Assembly (NCBI GenBank): GCA_963575745.1
Contig: CAUYUJ010015945.1
Location: 132,501-196,500, forward strand
DNA length: 64,000 nt
Origin: Prorocentrum cordatum
Lineage: Eukaryota; Sar; Dinophyceae; Prorocentrales; Prorocentraceae
Direction: 5' to 3'
Shown here: positions 22,923 to 64,000 of the stretch, piece by piece
Layout of the letters: each line of letters starts with the position of its first letter
Position numbering within the stretch: position 1 is the first letter of the stretch
Translations under genes and position numbers: made by a program
Notes under the pieces: model-generated
Databases searched by the model: none
Told to the model about the DNA's origin: nothing
Seen by the model: the letters and a program-made list of their open reading frames with translations, nothing else

Positions 22923-23464
22923 AACCAGTGCTGGGCCAGCTCAGACCCCAGCCGGCTCCAAGCCACCGCACAACCCAAGCCAGCCCCAGCGCTCCGCGGG
23001 GGCAGGGCCGAGCCCGCGGCTGCTGTGACTGCGCCTGCGCTTGGTACTGCTGCGGCTGCGCCTGGTACGAGCCGCCTGGGGAAATGGTCGCCGCCGCCGC
23101 CGCCGTCGCCGCCCGAGTGCCTCCTTGATCTCGGCCTCCTGGGGGCCGTGGTCGGGCGGCGGAACGAGCAGAAACTGGCCCTGTGGGCGTCAAACTGCCC
23201 CCGGGAGGGGGTCGGGAACCCCAGGGCCGCAGATTGGAAAGTCACATCGTCGGATGTCCAGGGTCGTCGTCGGTCGGCGGTGTCGTCGTCGTCCGCAGCC
23301 ACTTTGGCTGAAGCTCTTGCTGGTCCGAGCTGTTGCGCCTGGGTGTGCGTGGCCCATCGGCGCTCACAGTCGCATGGACGGCCGCATGTGGGCGCCAGAC
23401 TCTGAGGTGCCAGGGTGCGCAGAAACGCGCGCGCGCGCAGGGGTGCGCGGAAAGATCGAGATGA

Positions 23465-25922: not shown

Positions 25923-25927
25923 CTTCC
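25923..25927. repeat. Target-site duplication, left copy
   Basis: CTTCC directly abuts the left LTR and is repeated at 36,683-36,687. Confidence 0.9.
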
Positions 25928-26102
25928 TGCAAAACCCCGAGGAGGGTTCTGCACGGGAGCCTGGCAACAATGATGACGATAGGTCACCTTTATACTCCCG
26001 AACGGCAAAGCAGGTCTAAGTAGCTTCGGCCGTTAAACACTTGAGCCAAAGGCAGCAGGGTTACTATTCCTCCCCTGTCACGCGCACGCTTGCATGTTAA
26101 CA
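25928..26102 (-). repeat. 3' LTR of the copia-type element
   Basis: 175 bp beginning TGTTAACATGC and ending GGGGTTTTGCA in element orientation (TG...CA termini). It differs from the other LTR only at 25,951 (G versus A on the plus strand) and 25,975 (G versus A). It contains a TATA-like TATAAAGG (25,994-25,987) and a spliced-leader-like TTTGGCTCAAG (26,050-26,040). Confidence 0.97.
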
Positions 26103-26111
26103 CCCCCCCTC
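26103..26111 (-). other. Polypurine tract
   Basis: GAGGGGGGG immediately upstream, in element sense, of the 3' LTR. This is the expected plus-strand primer position. Confidence 0.85.
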
Positions 26112-26510: not shown

Positions 26511-29081
26511 TTACGAGCGGCGCGGGCGCCTCACTGACGGAGCACGCGCGCCTCTGGACTTCGGTAAACCACGGTGCCCCACGCTGGCCGCCGTATAGGA
26601 CGACACCCTGTTAAGGGCCTGCGTCGGGCTGTAATAGTCGGTGTCCAGGTACGCGTTAATGCGCTCCTCGTCGTCCAGCCAGCACCCCTCGTCAAAGCTC
26701 TTGGTGGACCCGTCAACAATGTTGTGGTAAGTGCCGATGGCCCTCCAGTAACTGGCGTGGGGAGCCTTCAGCAGAGGTTTACCACCTGGGTTGTTGCGGA
26801 GGTGCTCTTCGACCGCAACTCCGGTAAACGGGTTCACAGTCCAGGCCGGGTCGGTAAGCCAGTTGGGGAAGTCGTCGCACGGCAACCATCCAAACCAACA
26901 GAGCTTCTCGCGGTGGTCACTTTTACGCTCGGTGATGTGATCGGCAGGCCAGTTGTCACGGTAAAGTGCCCTCATGGACCCCTGATCGTTAAGAGCGACG
27001 TCTAGGATGGTCTGGTGCCAGTAAACCGGAGGCTTGTTGATGCTGCCCTTTAACTCCTCGGCGCTCCTGACCTCGAGATCCTCGATGAAGTAGTTGCGGT
27101 AATACACCCGGAGCCCGTTCATGTAACGGCAATAGAGCTTGGCAAGGTCGTGCGTCGCAAACCTGATCACGGTAACCCCAGTTGAGATGTAACCGTGCGG
27201 TCCGTAAGTGTCTTCCACCAGGTGCTTAACGGAGACCACGGTGGGGTTGCCGTGGGGCAGCATCCCGGCCCACGTTAGCAGAAGGCCGTTAAGCTGCTTC
27301 TCGTTCATTTCTGGTGCCTTGTTGACGTAGACCTGTGTATCTGGGCAGCTGTGAACGTCGAACCACACTGGGTGGAGATCGTTAACGTGGATCGGCGGCA
27401 CGTACTCGTCGTCGAACAGGGATTGTACGTGCCCGACCGCGTCAACCCACTCGTCGTGCTTTTCCAGCTCCTTCTCCGTCAACTGAGATCTCCAGCTGCA
27501 CGGGCCCTTCAACACGGAGTAACCGAGGAAGCCGTAAGCGTGCTGCCCGTAAATGTCGACGAACACCTCATCGTAGTCGTTAAGCTCCCGCCCCGCGTTG
27601 CCCTGAATAGACCGACCACCTGGAGTCGTTAACCCCTCTTTTGCCACATGTCCGACGAAGTTGCCTTCGAACCTGCGCCAGTTGTCGCGCGTCTTCATCG
27701 TTAACGCGACTACTTCCCTGGGGTCGGGCTCCACCTTGTAGTTGACGTCGTGGTCCTCGCTCCTGTCGTTCACCATGGGCATGCGGCCGTTGACATGGTA
27801 CAGTGGGCGGTACATGCCCCTGGCAACGTTCCGCGAGTATGCCGCAAGCTGCTCGTCCGCACGGTTAACAGCTTGAGGCTGCGGTGGAGGAACATACTGG
27901 GTCGATAACTTCTTGGGCACCGGAGGCGGGGGATTCATGCCGCTAACACTGCTCGATGCACCTGACTCGCCAAGGCCTGGAGGAGGCGGCTTGGGCGCCC
28001 TCACGTTCACCACCGGGGCAGGACCTTTTGGTGCTTCGTCACGTTGACTGCCCTGTGCGCGATCTTCATCCATTTTCATTCCCAGCTGCAGTAACTCTTC
28101 CAGTTCCCGTTTACGCTCATGCATGGCCTTGGGCGCTTTCTTGTAAACAGGTCGAGGTGACGTTGACTGCGGGATCTTATTCGGCGACACGGATCGACCG
28201 AACCCTCCGGTCTTGGGCGTGGTGCCGGTAAAGCCCTGAGCCGGGGGTGCACCCGATGCCGCGGCAGCTCGGGCTAGAGGCTTGCTGGCCTCGGCCGCCG
28301 CGTTGACTGCAGTGGGAGGCGCCTTGGCGGCCACTACCGTTGGGGGCTGCTCGGGTAACGGCGGAGGAACCTGCGGGATGTTGGTGACCGGGGAGTTGAT
28401 CGGGTCATGCAAGAACCTCTGTAATCCTTCGAGCCTCTCTGTTACTGCCACCAACAGGCGCAGTGCCGCATCACGTTTACCCTCGAAGTCCTGCAGGGGC
28501 GCGATGTTCTCGGTAAGGCGCTTGGCGGTGTTCAGGAGGTAACCAATGTTGTCGTTGATGCGCCTATACTTGGTTGCATTCTCCTCCGTGTTAACTCCCG
28601 AGTCACGATTCTGAATGTTCAGGTCCGTAATCGTCGCCATCAGAGCGTTAATCTCCGCCTGCGCCCTTTGGAGATTCTCGTTGACGTCGTCACTGTCCTG
28701 GATCAGCGCCTCGTTCTGCCGCGTTAATTCCTCGATCCTCTTCGCCATGTCATCCGCGGCCCTTTGCACCTCGTCAACGTGTTTGTCGTAGGCTCCGTGG
28801 AAGTTGATCGCCATGTTAGTGAGGGTTACGGTAAACGCGTGAGCAACGTGCACCATGTCGTCAACACGGCGGTTGAGGTTCTCACGCGTAACCGGTCCAT
28901 CCCCAGCCGGGCTCTGGTCGACCATGGAGCCGTTAATGGTGAGGTTGACCTGGGGAGCCGCCATGCCTTCGTTCACGCCCAAGAGTAAGAGGTAATGGGT
29001 GGAGAAGGCCTTTAATAGCTGCAGTTTGCTTGACAGAAATGAGCTGCGAACATCAACATTCGGTAGCTGGCGCAAGCTCAT
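26511..29081 (-). CDS. Third ORF of the copia-type element: coiled-coil, proline-rich, RRM-like protein
   Basis: 856 codons without interruption, between RNase H and the 3' LTR in sense orientation, the position of env-like genes in other LTR elements. No signal peptide or convincing membrane segment is seen, so an envelope is unlikely. Residues ~95-160 are a heptad-like acidic/basic coiled coil. Residues ~230-405 are a Pro/Ala-rich hinge with several PPPP runs. Residues ~410-820 are globular. Within this, ~582-671 fits an RRM: beta-1 TQVYVNKAP, helix EKQLNGLLLTWAG, beta-3 STGVTVIRFA, helix THDLAKLYCRYMNG, beta-4 YFIEDLEV. The tail is Arg-rich. The first Met overlaps the RNase H frame by 29 bp; Met40 (28,964) has a better context (GGCATGG, like the gag start) and is probably the true start. 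No family was recognised from memory. Role inferred: RNA binding or a second Gag-like structural protein. Confidence 0.85.
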   Translation of the reverse strand: MSLRQLPNVDVRSSFLSSKLQLLKAFSTHYLLLLGVNEGMAAPQVNLTINGSMVDQSPAGDGPVTRENLNRRVDDMVHVAHAFTVTLTNMAINFHGAYDKHVDEVQRAADDMAKRIEELTRQNEALIQDSDDVNENLQRAQAEINALMATITDLNIQNRDSGVNTEENATKYRRINDNIGYLLNTAKRLTENIAPLQDFEGKRDAALRLLVAVTERLEGLQRFLHDPINSPVTNIPQVPPPLPEQPPTVVAAKAPPTAVNAAAEASKPLARAAAASGAPPAQGFTGTTPKTGGFGRSVSPNKIPQSTSPRPVYKKAPKAMHERKRELEELLQLGMKMDEDRAQGSQRDEAPKGPAPVVNVRAPKPPPPGLGESGASSSVSGMNPPPPVPKKLSTQYVPPPQPQAVNRADEQLAAYSRNVARGMYRPLYHVNGRMPMVNDRSEDHDVNYKVEPDPREVVALTMKTRDNWRRFEGNFVGHVAKEGLTTPGGRSIQGNAGRELNDYDEVFVDIYGQHAYGFLGYSVLKGPCSWRSQLTEKELEKHDEWVDAVGHVQSLFDDEYVPPIHVNDLHPVWFDVHSCPDTQVYVNKAPEMNEKQLNGLLLTWAGMLPHGNPTVVSVKHLVEDTYGPHGYISTGVTVIRFATHDLAKLYCRYMNGLRVYYRNYFIEDLEVRSAEELKGSINKPPVYWHQTILDVALNDQGSMRALYRDNWPADHITERKSDHREKLCWFGWLPCDDFPNWLTDPAWTVNPFTGVAVEEHLRNNPGGKPLLKAPHASYWRAIGTYHNIVDGSTKSFDEGCWLDDEERINAYLDTDYYSPTQALNRVSSYTAASVGHRGLPKSRGARAPSVRRPRRS

Positions 29082-32566: not shown

Positions 32567-33922
32567 TCACCATTCAATAACTCGAGCCCTGCGATCAGCG
32601 TTGTGCGGTTTGTGTTCTTTGTCTCCTCTCACGAGGCATTTACATCCGTAACACCCTGGTGTCGGTCCCATGTTCAAGCATTCGTGTTTTTTAACTGCAA
32701 TCCCTCGTGCAATGAGCGGCTTCGTCTCAGGCGCAGTTAATTCTTGCTCTGGTAAATCCATGGGTACCATGATCCTAGACTGTAATTCCATTCCCGCTGT
32801 GCTCGGGTCAGGCTGCCAAGGTAACCCCTTTATTTCGGTGATCTCGGCAATATTCCATCTTTCCGCATCACTTCCTTTTCTTTTAAACTCGTGCGCCTTG
32901 ATTGCACCATTGGGCGTCCCAATAATTAGCTCTTGACTTTTCTCGTTTATGCCTAGAAACACTCCACTTTCCCATCTCATTTCGAGCTTCTCGCGGCCTT
33001 TGTGCGCAGGTGTCTTCAAATACATGACACACTCACCAAACTCAGGAATTTGCTTGTTAAATTTTCGTCCCCTGCACCTCTCATGGGCCGTCTTCCCATC
33101 CGTGTCCATTGTGAACTTGTTAATCGAAGAGGACGCGTAGCTCACCAGCCAAGGTATTATCTGATGGCTTTCACCAAACTCAGTCTTATAATTGGCATCT
33201 AAGGCGCTCTTTAACGTTCTGACCTGACCCTGCACTGTCCTAACGGCTCTCTCAATTTCGCCGTTGGCCTTTTCACGCAAACTCAGGGCTAACTTCAACT
33301 CCCATGTCAAGATCACACGAAGCTTTAATCCTATTGGCCAAGTGCTCGTGATTGCCGCTTCCCCATCACTTTTGAGTATCACCTTCTTGTATCCGGTAAA
33401 ACTTATCATGCCACATCCTACTTTTACCGAGTACGAGTCCACTCCCTTTCTCATCAACACTCTGCTCCAAGTTAATTTGGTCTCTCTGCAATGCATGGCC
33501 AAAATTGGATTGCCATTGCTGGTGCTTTCACCTTCATCCTTTCTTCCTTTAAGCCACATGTAATCCATTGAAATCACTGGCACGTTTCCGTTCCCCTCTC
33601 TTTTGCGTCTACGGTGATTGCGTCTGCGCGCTTTCCCTCTAACGCAATGTGGGCACCAGCTTCGGCAAGGCAAATGCGTCGTGTTATGCGCTTCAACTTC
33701 CTCCTTTGAGGGCCTCATGTCACAGTAAACTTTCTTTGGTAACTCCGCTTCATCACCCACAAATACATCTTCCACATCACTTAACTCACTATCGTTGCCC
33801 CCACTTTCACTCCCTTCGTCTCCTTCGGTATTAAAGACGTTTAAGTTTTCGCTTGGTCTTACGGGTGATGGGGGGCTTAGTAGAACAGATCCGCCTCCAG
33901 GGTTCCCGGCCGCGGAAAACCC
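32567..33922 (-). CDS. Integrase domain of pol
   Basis: Catalyses insertion of the cDNA into host chromosomes. Counting from an internal Met at 33,775, the zinc-binding HHCC appears as H30-x3-H34 and C41-x2-C44. The catalytic triad is D71, D137 and E173, with the D,D(35)E spacing of retroviral/copia integrases. An acidic Ser-rich leader (33,880-33,775) precedes this Met and is open in the same frame back to 33,922, directly after a TGA at 33,925-33,923. So the product needs a -1 shift from gag. The frame ends at a TGA (32,569-32,567), after which the same frame stays open for another 250 codons, so this stop is probably a lesion. Confidence 0.9.
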   Translation of the reverse strand, partial: GFSAAGNPGGGSVLLSPPSPVRPSENLNVFNTEGDEGSESGGNDSELSDVEDVFVGDEAELPKKVYCDMRPSKEEVEAHNTTHLPCRSWCPHCVRGKARRRNHRRRKREGNGNVPVISMDYMWLKGRKDEGESTSNGNPILAMHCRETKLTWSRVLMRKGVDSYSVKVGCGMISFTGYKKVILKSDGEAAITSTWPIGLKLRVILTWELKLALSLREKANGEIERAVRTVQGQVRTLKSALDANYKTEFGESHQIIPWLVSYASSSINKFTMDTDGKTAHERCRGRKFNKQIPEFGECVMYLKTPAHKGREKLEMRWESGVFLGINEKSQELIIGTPNGAIKAHEFKRKGSDAERWNIAEITEIKGLPWQPDPSTAGMELQSRIMVPMDLPEQELTAPETKPLIARGIAVKKHECLNMGPTPGCYGCKCLVRGDKEHKPHNADRRARVIEW

Positions 33923-36507: not shown

Positions 36508-36682
36508 TGCAAAACCCCGAGGAGGGTTCTACACGGGAGCCTGGCAACAATGATAACGATAGGTCACCTTTATACTCCCGAACGGCAAAGCAGGTCTAAG
36601 TAGCTTCGGCCGTTAAACACTTGAGCCAAAGGCAGCAGGGTTACTATTCCTCCCCTGTCACGCGCACGCTTGCATGTTAACA
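36508..36682 (-). repeat. 5' LTR of the copia-type element
   Basis: 175 bp, TG...CA. A TATA-like TATAAAGG (36,574-36,567) lies about 80 bp upstream of the gag ATG, so a start 25-30 bp downstream would give a ~50-nt leader. TTTGGCTCAAG (36,630-36,620) matches the last 11 nt of the dinoflagellate spliced leader. Confidence 0.97.
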
Positions 36683-36687
36683 CTTCC
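36683..36687. repeat. Target-site duplication, right copy
   Basis: CTTCC, matching 25,923-25,927. Followed at once by TCC triplets to about 36,713. Confidence 0.9.
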
Positions 36688-39039: not shown

Positions 39040-39218
39040 GGGGCGCGCAAGCATGGATTGGCGATCCACGGATTTGGCGCGCGGTCGCCAACTCCATGGG
39101 TCGGGGCGGGGGAGGTGCCCTCCCCAAAATACGGCCAGTGCCGCCTCGTTCGGCGGCGGGAATCCGCGCTTGCCCATGGAAACGGGACCCGTCGCTGGCT
39201 AATCCACGCCCCCTTGAT
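39040..39218. repeat. Dispersed repeat S, copy 2
   Basis: Matches 19,120-19,296. Intronic with respect to the glycosyltransferase gene. Confidence 0.7.
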
Positions 39219-39370
39219 CTATGATTGCGATCGCCTGATTCTGAGAAAAGAACGGTCCGCTTACAAGCGACACCCTCCCCCGCCGCAAACATTCTTGAGA
39301 CGTCCTGGGAAATCTCTTGCTAATCAACGACGCTTCCTTGCTTCCCTGCCCCTGTCGCTCGCCGCCAAAC

Positions 39371-39820
39371 TTCGGAGACGAACAGAAGTGGAGGATCTTG
39401 ATCGGCTTGATGGCCTCCCAATACCCCGGGTTCTTGTGGGTAAACCAATACATCGTTCGGAGAGCATTATACCTGAAGGGCAGCCGGTGCTGCGATGACC
39501 ACTCGTACCAAGAGGGGAAGAAAGAGTTCAGGAATCCAGTATCGCCACCATCGTGAGAACCCAACTTTGGAACTTGCGCCATCATTTCGGCAAACACATC
39601 TCGGGAAGGTTGCATCACAATCACGCCTGCGTTGAATCGATCTGGAGGAAACACGTCTGGGCAAAAGGATGGGCTCGGCCGCTCAAAAAGCTCGTCGACA
39701 CTCTCCAAGACGATACAATCGGCGTCGATGTACACAAGCCTGTCGAAGTCCTCCTGCTCCCAGAGGCGCAACTTGGTGAAACCAGAATTCGCCCAGCCGG
39801 GAACGTCTGTAAGATGAGGA
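39371..39820 (-). CDS. Glycosyltransferase family 8 gene, exon 2 (catalytic core)
   Basis: About 150 codons. It begins PHLTDVPGWANSGFTKL, then RLWEQEDFDRLVYIDADCIV with the DxD motif (DAD) that binds Mn2+ and the nucleotide sugar. LFERPSPSFCPDVFPPDRFN and AGVIVMQPSRDVF follow, then DGGDTGFLNSFFPSWYEW, HRLPFRYNA, and IKILHFCSSPK at the end. This is the glycogenin/GT8 core, which transfers glucose or another sugar from an NDP-sugar. The acceptor CCCTAG is preceded by a pyrimidine-rich stretch. The open frame on either side reads into introns. Exact partner substrate unknown. Confidence 0.88.
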
Positions 39821-40022
39821 CTAGGGATAAGAAGGAGTACACAAGCTACACGAACATAGAGTTTCGGAGGTGTGCGCGGATCTTGTGGACCAGCGCTGGA
39901 CCCGCTTGCGGCGCGTCTGGCGCCGCCGCCGACGCCCTCCGCGCGCCAGGGAGCGGCGACCAGCGCGTTTCCGAGAAGTCCGCGCGCACCTCCGAAAGCC
40001 GATGTTGACCTAGTTGTTTCTC
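39821..40022. mobile_element. FBA foldback element forming intron 1 of the GT8 gene
   Basis: The inferred 202-nt intron starts GAGAAACAACTAGGTC and ends CTTATCCCTAG on the minus strand. It contains both FBA arms (CGGAGGTGCGCGCGGACTTC and GATCCGCGCACACCTCCG), the central palindromes, and the outer TATGTTCGTGT/AACATCGG termini. Its length is nearly that of the intact FBA copy (197 bp), so the whole intron is the element. The donor appears to be GA, a non-canonical donor reported for dinoflagellates; phase then fits both exons. Confidence 0.75.
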
Positions 40023-40213
40023 CCTCGGGGGATCGCATCAACACGCCGAAGCTTCACGATGTCCACGGCAGCCAGACGTCCCAGGACGCCGGGCGACACC
40101 TGATCGGTGTGGAGCAGCAGCAGTACCTCCGGGGTGCCGCTGGCCTTCAGCGAAGCCGCCAGGGCCTGCACGGGCATCAGGAAATCCCGGGGGGCGCCAA
40201 CGACCCGCCCGCC
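40023..40213 (-). CDS. Glycosyltransferase family 8 gene, exon 1 of those recognised
   Basis: About 63 codons. It runs GGRVVGAPRDFLMPVQALAA, SLKASGTPEVLLLLHTDQVS and PGVLGRLAAVDIVKLRRVDA to IPRG. This is the N-terminal GT8 pattern: a residue run entering the nucleotide-sugar-binding fold, then SL, then a V-L-L-L-L-H-T-D strand. The acceptor CCTAG|GGC lies at 40,215-40,214. A 5' exon with the initiator Met must exist beyond 40,380 but was not identified. Confidence 0.8.
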
Positions 40214-61196: not shown

Positions 61197-62336
61197 TTAT
61201 TTGCAAATCCGGAATCGGTGCCAAAACGCCATTCCCGGGACATCAATGCCGAGGAGCACCATTACTGTTGCGTCCTGGCGCTCCTGAATCGCGTCAGAAC
61301 ACCATTCCTGGAACTTCAACACAGAGAATAAACGTGACCGCTGCGCCCTGTGCGCGGCGCCCCCCGCGGAGCCGCTATCCTTGTTGATCCAAGAGGGTTG
61401 CGTCACAGCGCCCCCCTTAACAACCTTAGAACTATGTTCATAGCTCTGGCACGCCTCCTCGCCGCGTCTTTGCGGAGCAAGGCGCGGCGCCCCCCGCGGG
61501 GCCTCCCGCTGGGGGCGGTCTGTCAGGGGCTGTTGTGCACCTTCAGGTGCTGGCGCTCGCAGCCGATGTAGTCGCCGCCGACTCGGCCAGCTCGTCGATA
61601 GTCGGCCTCGGGCCCTGCTGGCCCTGGATGGCCCTGCCGCCATCCTCGCCAGCCTGTTGGCAAGGTTCGCCTCCAGGCCCGTCGCGCTGAGGCCCCGCGT
61701 CCGAAGCGCAGCCATCAGCTCGTCGACCCTGTAGCGCATCCGCTCGTCTCTGACGGCTACCTGCTCGCCACTGAGTGGAACGCCGTGGAGCTCCTCGTAC
61801 TGGCGCTCCAAGATCCTCGACGCGACCTGTCGTCGCTGCCGAGGTCCTTCACTGTTGATCGGCACGGAGCCTCCCGATGCCGATCCCGTGTTCGCGTCCT
61901 CGGAGGCTGGAGGCGGTGCTTCCCGCTCTCGTCCGCCCTGAGCGCTCGCGCCCTCTGTAGCTAGAGGCGGTGCTTCCCAACCTCGTCCGCCCTGGGCGAT
62001 GTCGTCTCGCCCGTCGTCGGTGCCCTCCATCACCTCGCCGCCCGCAATGTCGGGTTGGCGCTCCCTCGGACGCCTCTTGGCGAGGTGGCACACCGCTACC
62101 GTGGCTCCAATCATGTGCACCAACATGAACAGGAACAGCGGCGCGACGACGCCAATCGCGCTGCCGTCATACTGGCCTTCTCCCGAGGCTGCGGCAGCCC
62201 CCGCTGCGCCACGCGCGTACACTGTTGCCGAGACTACCGTGGAGTCGCCGCTGTGGAGTCGCTCACATGGCCAGCCGCACGCCCTCGTCGCTAGCCCCAT
62301 GAGCTTCACCAAGACCTCGATCGACGAGCCGCCCAG
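61197..62336 (-). CDS. C-terminal extension of the second copia-type element (membrane segment, SAP-like)
   Basis: Continuous minus frame from YLGGSSIEVLVKLMGLATRA, the usual end of copia RNase H, through the 371-codon open frame. Numbered from Met 62,312: residues ~53-75 (IGVVAPLFLFMLVHMIGATV) are one clear hydrophobic membrane segment. Residues ~98-150 are low-complexity Gly/Glu/Ala. Residues ~192-224 (RVDELMAALRTRGLSATGLE) resemble a SAP nucleic-acid-binding motif. The frame after ~residue 290 runs past a candidate polypurine tract (TTAAGGGGGG, 61,420-61,411) and probably is not translated. The N-terminal Met is internal to the polyprotein, not a true start. Confidence 0.6.
   Translation of the reverse strand: MGGSSIEVLVKLMGLATRACGWPCERLHSGDSTVVSATVYARGAAGAAAASGEGQYDGSAIGVVAPLFLFMLVHMIGATVAVCHLAKRRPRERQPDIAGGEVMEGTDDGRDDIAQGGRGWEAPPLATEGASAQGGREREAPPPASEDANTGSASGGSVPINSEGPRQRRQVASRILERQYEELHGVPLSGEQVAVRDERMRYRVDELMAALRTRGLSATGLEANLANRLARMAAGPSRASRARGRLSTSWPSRRRLHRLRAPAPEGAQQPLTDRPQREAPRGAPRLAPQRRGEEACQSYEHSSKVVKGGAVTQPSWINKDSGSAGGAAHRAQRSRLFSVLKFQEWCSDAIQERQDATVMVLLGIDVPGMAFWHRFRICK
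61411..61420 (-). other. Candidate polypurine tract of the second copia-type element
   Basis: TTAAGGGGGG followed in sense by CGCTGTGACGC. It is the expected distance downstream of pol, but no LTR pair is visible to confirm it. Confidence 0.35.
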
Positions 62337-64000
62337 GTAACTTCGTCCCGATGTCTGCTCGGTTCGCCGCCCCGTCCTACTTGATCACCCTCAGATCTTT
62401 CGTCCGCGCGCGCTCCTGTATCCACAGGTCCTGGATGCGGAGATGCCGCGCTCGGCCTGGCCCCACTCGGTGGGCCATTCCCTTCGCGGCCGAGCTGTCC
62501 GTGCCAGCAGCTCCCTGCGCGTGGATCCCGCACAGTGCGAGGATCTGCTGCAATAGGATAGCGGAGGCACCTGCCCCGTTGAGAGCTCGGAGATCTGCCG
62601 CCCCGATTGACGTCGCTACGTAGCCCTACGTCGACGCAGTCACCTCCAGGCAGTGATCGCCGAACATCATCACCGTGCACTGCGTGGACTTCGCGTCATC
62701 CGCTCCTGCCCAGGTCGCCGTCGCCCTCGACGTCCGCCGTGACTGGGAGGGCCTGCCACGGGTAGTGCCACTCCGTCACTGGACACCCCGCAAGGCACCG
62801 TGCAGCACGCTTGAGCTTGACCTCAGCGAGTGGCGTAGGCTTCGACGCTTCCGCCATGATCATCCTCGCTTCGCACTGCACCTGCGGCAGTCCTGGGGCA
62901 GGTAGGTCAGCAATCCGCATGCCTCGGGCGCCAACTTCTTGAGCCGCTCGTCCACGACCGCCCCCTTGGGCACGGAGCCCCCCGCGGCCTTCGAGCCTGG
63001 GCTTGTCTGAGGCTTCGTCGTGTCAGCTGGCAGGTCGAAGAGCTCGAGTAGGTTGTCCACGTGCGAGTCATCTGCTCTCCACACGAAGCGAAGTGACGGA
63101 ACCTCCCGCCACTCGACGCGTCGCTTGAGCAGCCTGCCGTAGCTACCGCCGGTGGCACCCGGCCCTACTCGACCCAGCTTCTCGATCTCGATGTGCTCCT
63201 CCAGCAACGCGTCGAGCACGCCCAGCTTCGCCGAGAGCCCTCGGTCGCGAAGTCGTCACCGCGCACGCCAAGTGCGGCGTCCAACGTCTCGTTGTAGCAG
63301 GCACCAGGGCAAGGCGTGATCCGAACGCATGGGGCTGACTCTTCTCGAAGACGTCGCCGACGTACGTCTGCCACAACCCTGGCGCAGGCCGTGTACCGCA
63401 GAGCGCCTCGTGGAGCTGCCAGACCCGCCCAGGTCGTCGTAGCCCAGGCGGTAGCGCCACGCACAGCCACTCGTCCATGTCCGCGCGGAAGAACGCCACG
63501 CTGGCATCGCGCAGAGCCACATGCCTCCGCCCCGATGGGGGCTTCGAGGCAGCCAGGGACACCACCAAGCGCAAGTAAAAGAGGTACGGCGCACATGCCG
63601 CCGCGTCGTCGCGCTCGAAGGTTGAGGTCCATGGCAACGAGTCTCGACCGTGCGAAGGGCGTCCCGTCTGGCCTGTATCGGAGTCCGCGAAGCCACTTGC
63701 TCCGCATGCGCCTGCCTGCGCTCGCGTCGTGGGACACGTCCTCGTACGCGCCGAACGCGGCCAACTGGTTGAACTCCTGCTGGCGCCCCTGCACCGCGAG
63801 CTCCCTCGGCAGCGCCTCGCCCGAGCGGCTGTCGTACACCACCGCCTCTGGTACGAGGTCGTGCGCCCGCGCTGTCGGGGCCTCCCGATCACGCGCGGAC
63901 GCCGGGGACAGCTGCTGCCGCTCGCAGTCCTCGCCGTCGAGCCCCAGGTAGGTCACTGACGTCCACGGGCGCCGCGAGGTTGGCCACCCAGTGCGCCTTC
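62337..64000 (-). pseudogene. pol: RT-RNase H region of a second copia-type element (frameshifted, partial)
   Basis: Enters from the right edge. Sense order: FNQLAAFGAYEDV then MRSKWLRGLRYRPDGTPFAR and SRLVAMDLN (RT fingers), VALRDASVAFFRADMDEWLC and VALPPGLRRPGRVWQLHEAL with CGTR (palm), VRGDDFATEG (catalytic DD box), LEEHIEIEKLGRVGPG and LKRRVEW (connection), GLLTYLPQDCRRC, then RNase H with TDSSAAKGMAHRVGPGRARH and LRIQDLWIQE. These segments lie in at least three minus frames, with a TAG after LRVIK and a +1 shift before YLGGSS. GC-rich, unlike the 26-36 kb element, hence a different lineage and an old, dead copy. Confidence 0.75.

Follow-up and report, generated by a model that had tools for sequence, protein, structure and literature searches.

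A third sense open reading frame, predicted to encode a constrained protein, in a copia-type retrotransposon of Prorocentrum cordatum

In a 64,000-nucleotide stretch of Prorocentrum cordatum DNA (assembly GCA_963575745.1, contig CAUYUJ010015945.1, positions 132,501 to 196,500 of the forward strand; hereafter the window), we found a complete copia-type long terminal repeat (LTR) retrotransposon on the minus strand that carries a third open reading frame (ORF3) in sense orientation between pol and the 3' LTR. Judged from its sequence and that of three relatives, ORF3 encodes a real, constrained protein, whose family appears to be undescribed. We propose, with a probability of about 0.5, that ORF3 belongs to this copia lineage as a genuine third gene, which would be expressed from its own spliced mRNA and whose product would act as an oligomeric ribonucleoprotein (RNP) cofactor binding the RNA of the element. 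The separate mRNA, the RNA binding and the role in retrotransposition are what we infer from the observations below.

Direct repeats bound the element at 25928-26103 and 36508-36683 and differ from each other at 2 of 176 positions; the LTRs, primer binding site (PBS), polypurine tract (PPT) and target-site duplication (TSD) by which a first-pass annotation had defined it could all be located.

36683-36687, minus strand: 5' copy of the TSD, GGAAG, at the edge of a GGA repeat
36682-36508, minus strand: 5' LTR, TG...CA, 175 nt, 2 mismatches against the 3' LTR
36507-36487, minus strand: PBS region, TGGTAGCGGAGCG, directly after the 5' LTR
26111-26103, minus strand: PPT, GAGGGGGGG, directly before the 3' LTR
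26102-25928, minus strand: 3' LTR, TG...CA, 175 nt, from the repeat comparison
25923-25927, minus strand: 3' copy of the TSD, GGAAG, beside the 3' LTR

Read in sense, the order is TSD, 5' LTR, PBS, gag with a protease-like part, integrase frame, reverse transcriptase (RT), RNase H, ORF3, PPT, 3' LTR and TSD, with about 400 nt between ORF3 and the PPT that hold no named feature. We assign the element to the copia type because its RT frame matches RVT_2, and we take its PBS to be of the initiator-Met tRNA type.

The frame between RNase H and the 3' LTR proved as open as had been claimed, with 856 codons in sense from the first ATG (29081-26511, minus strand), or 860 codons from stop to stop, counted from 29090 with the stop codon included. 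It differs from the frame in which pol ends, and the pol stop at 29053 lies 88 nt from the ATG of Met40 at 28964. Since the three relatives begin near Met40, their starts being gene-caller predictions, this methionine is the likely start, and the product is probably a protein of 817 aa, shorter than the 856 codons originally given as its length. A chance ORF, to which we assign a practically negligible probability, is refuted by simulated run lengths and by the existence of the three relatives: in 300 sequences of 10.4 kb, simulated from a first-order Markov model of ORF3 composition and read in six frames, the longest open run averaged 231 codons and reached at most 437, compared with 860 in ORF3. 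The frame and its parts are as follows.

28964-26511, minus strand: ORF3 from Met40, 817 aa, a start shared with the relatives
28886-28407, minus strand: helical, putative coiled-coil part, residues 66-225, from generic models and the predicted structure
28391-27870, minus strand: Pro-rich variable linker, residues 231-404, with low identity and many gaps
27869-26514, minus strand: conserved C-terminal half, residues 405-856, at 66% identity
27350-27066, minus strand: putative RRM-like (RNA recognition motif-like) domain, about residues 578-672, from the model, fold searches and a profile test
26603-26514, minus strand: basic tail, residues 827-856, with 8 K/R, no D/E and a conserved SVRRPR

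Constraint on the protein differed markedly by region. Protein searches with the whole sequence and with an alignment returned the same two unnamed relatives and a search with words from residues 405-856 returned three (P0001, 841 aa; P0002, 863 aa; P0003, 854 aa; source 'ena', with longest contigs of 4430, 4359 and 11786, respectively; available as protein sequences only), where the scoring covered the 7991 top word-sharing candidates for the first two queries and 5470 for the third and would miss relatives that differ in length or share no words with the query. Overall identity to ORF3 ranged from 54 to 58%, with 58, 58 and 56% for P0001, P0002 and P0003, respectively, in the alignment. Residues 40-230 showed 54, 53 and 46% identity, and the linker (residues 231-404) 39, 43 and 40% with 59, 67 and 72 gap columns, while the C-terminal half kept its 66% identity to each relative with 2 gap columns each. 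Such region-wise constraint without insertions or deletions argues for selection on the protein, in line with the original suggestion that it is kept by selection. DNA-pattern searches revealed no relatives in the viral contigs (queried with the ORF3 alignment, the ORF3 C-terminal half, P0003, gag, integrase and RT) or in the genome contigs (queried with the ORF3 alignment and P0003), and a tblastn search of phage records revealed none either. A relationship of ORF3 to the element's own gag was also considered and rejected, the best E value in that single BLASTP comparison being 0.57.

Sequence families gave hints for the N-terminal part of ORF3 only. Generic coiled-coil models matched there, all of them below their cut-offs, and long helices at residues 66-225 appeared in a very low-confidence model of the whole protein (pLDDT 34 overall, usable for secondary-structure hints only). 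An N-terminal coiled coil, first proposed for ORF3, is thus supported but weak in ORF3 and its relatives. Pfam searches with the full ORF3 proteins returned only below-cut-off matches in this coiled-coil part and none for pieces of the proteins, NCBIfam searches with two of the proteins likewise gave only below-cut-off N-terminal matches, and the whole profile found five weak matches among PDB sequences, all N-terminal, with no significant match in the C-terminal half. For the region around residues 578-672, the structure prediction and fold search that the first-pass annotation had recommended yielded an RRM-like fold and fold matches rich in RRMs, although the confidence of the model was low; the predicted strands and helices follow an RRM-like order with an extra hairpin ahead of the third RRM strand. 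A profile test against shuffles pointed the same way, with a weak profile similarity of this region to RRM proteins, so that an RRM-like fold is, as a model-based reading, supported but weak. A fold search in viral models returned nothing clear (best E 0.11). Compared with RRM proteins such as U2AF65, U1A, PTB and hnRNP M, the ORF3 model shares a similar arrangement of strands and helices but differs in its extra hairpin, in the lack of a Pfam match and in the missing aromatics of the RNP1 motif.

ORF3 occupies a position in which other proteins have been described before. Plant elements are known to carry sense ORFs downstream of pol and ahead of the 3' LTR, some of which are env-like (PMC7264820). 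The plant Ty1/copia elements with an extra ORF described there have in common with the present element the LTRs, PBS, PPT, a 5-bp TSD, an RVT_2-type RT, the sense ORF and its possible spliced expression. Position, orientation and a possible spliced mRNA, as in some plant elements, would fit an env-like protein that interacts with membranes. We nevertheless disfavour this reading and regard it as very improbable, because hydropathy revealed no transmembrane segment: the highest mean over 19 residues was 1.07 in ORF3 and did not exceed 0.96 in any of the three relatives, which bears out the earlier remark that a membrane segment is missing. The basic C-terminal tail and the RRM-like domain also speak against it. 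Unlike the plant extra ORFs, ORF3 thus combines the absence of a membrane segment with a putative coiled coil, a Pro-rich linker, an RRM-like domain and a basic tail, with no significant family match.

A coiled coil followed by an RRM-like domain is the plan of LINE-1 ORF1p, a retroelement protein that likewise pairs a coiled-coil oligomerisation part with an RRM-type domain (PMC5940361), and the central domain of LINE-1 ORF1p (2w7a) stood at rank 46 in the Foldseek list with an E value of 0.21. ORF3 could in principle be a LINE ORF1-type gene that landed inside the copia element, a scenario that we judge quite unlikely: no ORF1p family was among the Pfam matches listed, and no LINE RT was noticed beside ORF3 in the ORF lists, in which no scan was aimed at one. 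Furthermore, ORF3 is the last (third) ORF of an LTR element with a separate zinc-knuckle gag rather than the first ORF of a non-LTR element, it has a linker of about 170 residues between the coiled coil and the C-terminal half, and no sequence similarity to LINE-1 ORF1p was found.

Splice-like signals suggest, on sequence grounds, that ORF3 has a separate mRNA, perhaps a trans-spliced one. We scanned the sense strand for AGs with no other AG in the preceding 20 nt and with at least 20 pyrimidines per 25-nt stretch within the 45 nt before. Only two of 905 sense AGs passed, and the two bracket ORF3.

29013-28967, minus strand: pyrimidine tract (21/25) with AG at 28968-28967, a candidate (trans-)splice acceptor 2 nt before the ATG of Met40
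26499-26453, minus strand: strongest pyrimidine tract-AG of the element (22/25), AG at 26454-26453, 57 nt after the ORF3 stop

Shuffled sequences held a mean of 0.09 sites at a threshold of at least 21 pyrimidines, with two sites in 0 of 300. Shorter stretches of 15 or 20 nt added a third site, in gag (35421), and the laxest setting more. On the antisense strand, 26 sites passed at the same setting; the scarcity of pyrimidine tracts is therefore a feature of the sense strand only. As a 22-nt leader is joined to the 5' end of all mRNAs in dinoflagellates (PMC6050394), trans-splicing of the ORF3 mRNA would be the simplest reading and cis-splicing the alternative one. Acceptor-site rules for dinoflagellates were not found in our literature search, in which the matches concerned Schistosoma, Trypanosoma and Leishmania.

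We hypothesize that a short mRNA of its own, spliced (most likely in trans, to the spliced leader) at the polypyrimidine-AG before Met40, would yield an ORF3 protein whose N-terminal coiled coil mediates oligomerisation and whose C-terminal half, with the RRM-like domain and the basic tail, binds RNA of the element itself. As an RNP cofactor, the protein might either package or chaperone the genomic RNA in the manner of LINE-1 ORF1p or keep that RNA unspliced. The chief alternative is that a host gene was captured, an origin which we consider possible though less probable: one copy or a small family of the element would have taken up a cellular gene of RNA-binding type together with its trans-splice acceptor, ORF3 would have no role in retrotransposition, and P0001-P0003 would be host genes. 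Four observations favour such a capture. Third-position GC is 0.61-0.79 in ORF3, depending on the region, whereas gag and pol have 0.43-0.56; a host gene, too, would be expected to have a polypyrimidine-AG just ahead of its ATG; only four family members have been seen, with the relatives known as proteins only; and LTR elements of plants are known to transduce genes (PMC7264820). Two further results bear on the RNA binding. Pfam RRM was not among the matches listed for the four proteins and for the isolated domains of three of them (for P0003, the best 25 of 38 matches). RRM strands are commonly judged by the aromatic consensus of the RNP1 and RNP2 motifs, and while strand 1 of the domain (VYVN) fits RNP2, strand 3 (GVTVIRF) lacks two of the three RNP1 aromatics in all four sequences. 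With neither a Pfam RRM match nor the RNP1 aromatics, RNA binding can be inferred only; of the earlier claims, the RRM-like order at residues 582-671 stands as an order of strands and helices with weak fold evidence, and the RNA binding, the action in trans and the new retroelement family stay suggestions. Capture, for its part, sits poorly with the placement of ORF3, in sense between pol and the PPT and 88 nt past the pol stop, and with the absence of any Pfam family from its C-terminal half, and a gene captured by way of its spliced mRNA would no longer have the acceptor.

If ORF3 is indeed a third gene of the element, a conserved RRM-like protein without a membrane segment would represent a new retroelement protein family, convergent with the plan of LINE-1 ORF1p, whereas the discussion of sense 3' ORFs in LTR elements has mostly concerned env-like proteins (PMC7264820). 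It would also raise the question of how full-length genomic RNA is kept when the transcript of a retroelement can be trans-spliced. Additional proteins have been reported for the dinoflagellate retrotransposons SymbioLINE-Dnmt and SymbioDIRS-Dnmt3, which carry cytosine methyltransferases but are LINE and DIRS elements, and the abundant Copia elements of Symbiodinium are described as having no DNMT domain (PMC5890265). Among the literature matches listed, judged by title and the start of the abstract and with subscription journals mostly outside the scope, we found no copia element described as encoding an RRM-like domain in a third ORF, nor any leader relic reported from an LTR.

The LTRs contain a short match to the dinoflagellate spliced leader, DCCGTAGCCATTTTGGCTCAAG (PMC12014239), which was noticed upon reading the sequence and not predicted beforehand.

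26040-26050 (3' LTR) and 36620-36630 (5' LTR), minus strand: TTTGGCTCAAG, in sense, identical to the final 11 nt of the dinoflagellate spliced leader

These are the only two exact occurrences of TTTGGCTCAAG in the window, and they count as one event because they are copies of one LTR. Allowing one mismatch gave 3 occurrences where 1.41 are expected, and 16 of 100 shuffles had at least 3; when GCC ahead of the match and a 2-nt gap were included, 24 of 20,000 LTR shuffles scored as high. We therefore treat the apparent leader match in the LTRs as a lead only. A longer match lies on the plus strand at 23293-23313, where 18 of 21 leader bases agree (0 of 100 shuffles; score 13.5 compared with 11.5 for the LTR), possibly the leader relic of a retrogene. 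One could imagine, as a speculation to which we give a small chance, that the copia element has adapted to spliced-leader trans-splicing: the 11-mers in the LTRs would let leader-capped genomic RNA match the 3' LTR at strand transfer, ORF3 would be trans-spliced separately, and the RRM-like protein would bind pyrimidine tracts and spare part of the genomic RNA from trans-splicing, in the manner of a Rev-like or PTB-like switch.

Upstream of ORF3, the element consists of the following frames.

36486-33877, minus strand: gag ORF, 869 aa, open, with two CCHC zinc knuckles (Pfam, E 1.5e-11)
33922-31793, minus strand: integrase frame (frame 1), one in-frame TGA, weak SH3_retrovirus match
31949-29979, minus strand: RT frame, RVT_2 at residues 473-652
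29994-29053, minus strand: end of RT and RNase H frame, one in-frame TGA, sharing 29% identity with a second copia-like fragment described below

The gag ORF contains DSGA, which we take to be a protease-like motif. The RVT_2 match in the RT frame is clear (E 2.1e-12, 47.6 bits against a Pfam cut-off of 31.6), and the integrase frame upstream of it, a label that we assume partly from motifs, matched SH3_retrovirus (SH3-like) with an E value of 3e-4, below the Pfam cut-off. The frame labelled RNase H had no Pfam match; its label comes from the first-pass annotation and presumably holds on the basis of motifs. Pfam likewise gave no match for the stretch of about 300 residues that precedes RVT_2 at the N-terminal end of the RT frame (31949-31050, minus strand), where the motifs SPMCAAFS and FEHP resemble, as we assume, those of a cytosine methyltransferase. 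We rejected such a methyltransferase, as it found no support in Pfam and a PDB sequence search gave no significant match.

Both gag and ORF3 are open, and all breaks are confined to pol. We counted five interruptions, one more than the four initially reported: TGA interrupts the frame twice (codons ending at 32567 and 29515), and the frame changes three times, one of these changes, at the border between gag-protease and integrase, being possibly natural. Random placement would put all five breaks in pol (4.8 of the 10.0 kb of gag, pol and ORF3) with a chance of about 0.03, a weak figure from simple arithmetic that assumes equal rates and is open to assembly errors.

The second copia-like fragment lies at 61197-63998 on the minus strand, and its segment 62667-62329 (minus strand) has the 29% identity to the RNase H frame of the first element (113 residues, E 1.3e-11). 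Directly after this RNase H-like part follows a different kind of 3' extra ORF (371 aa, 62312-61197, minus strand), which has a hydrophobic segment reaching 2.22 over 19 residues, a presumably SAP-like stretch and no Pfam match. The window also contains a glycosyltransferase family 8 domain at 39199-40044 on the minus strand (Pfam E 2.4e-9).
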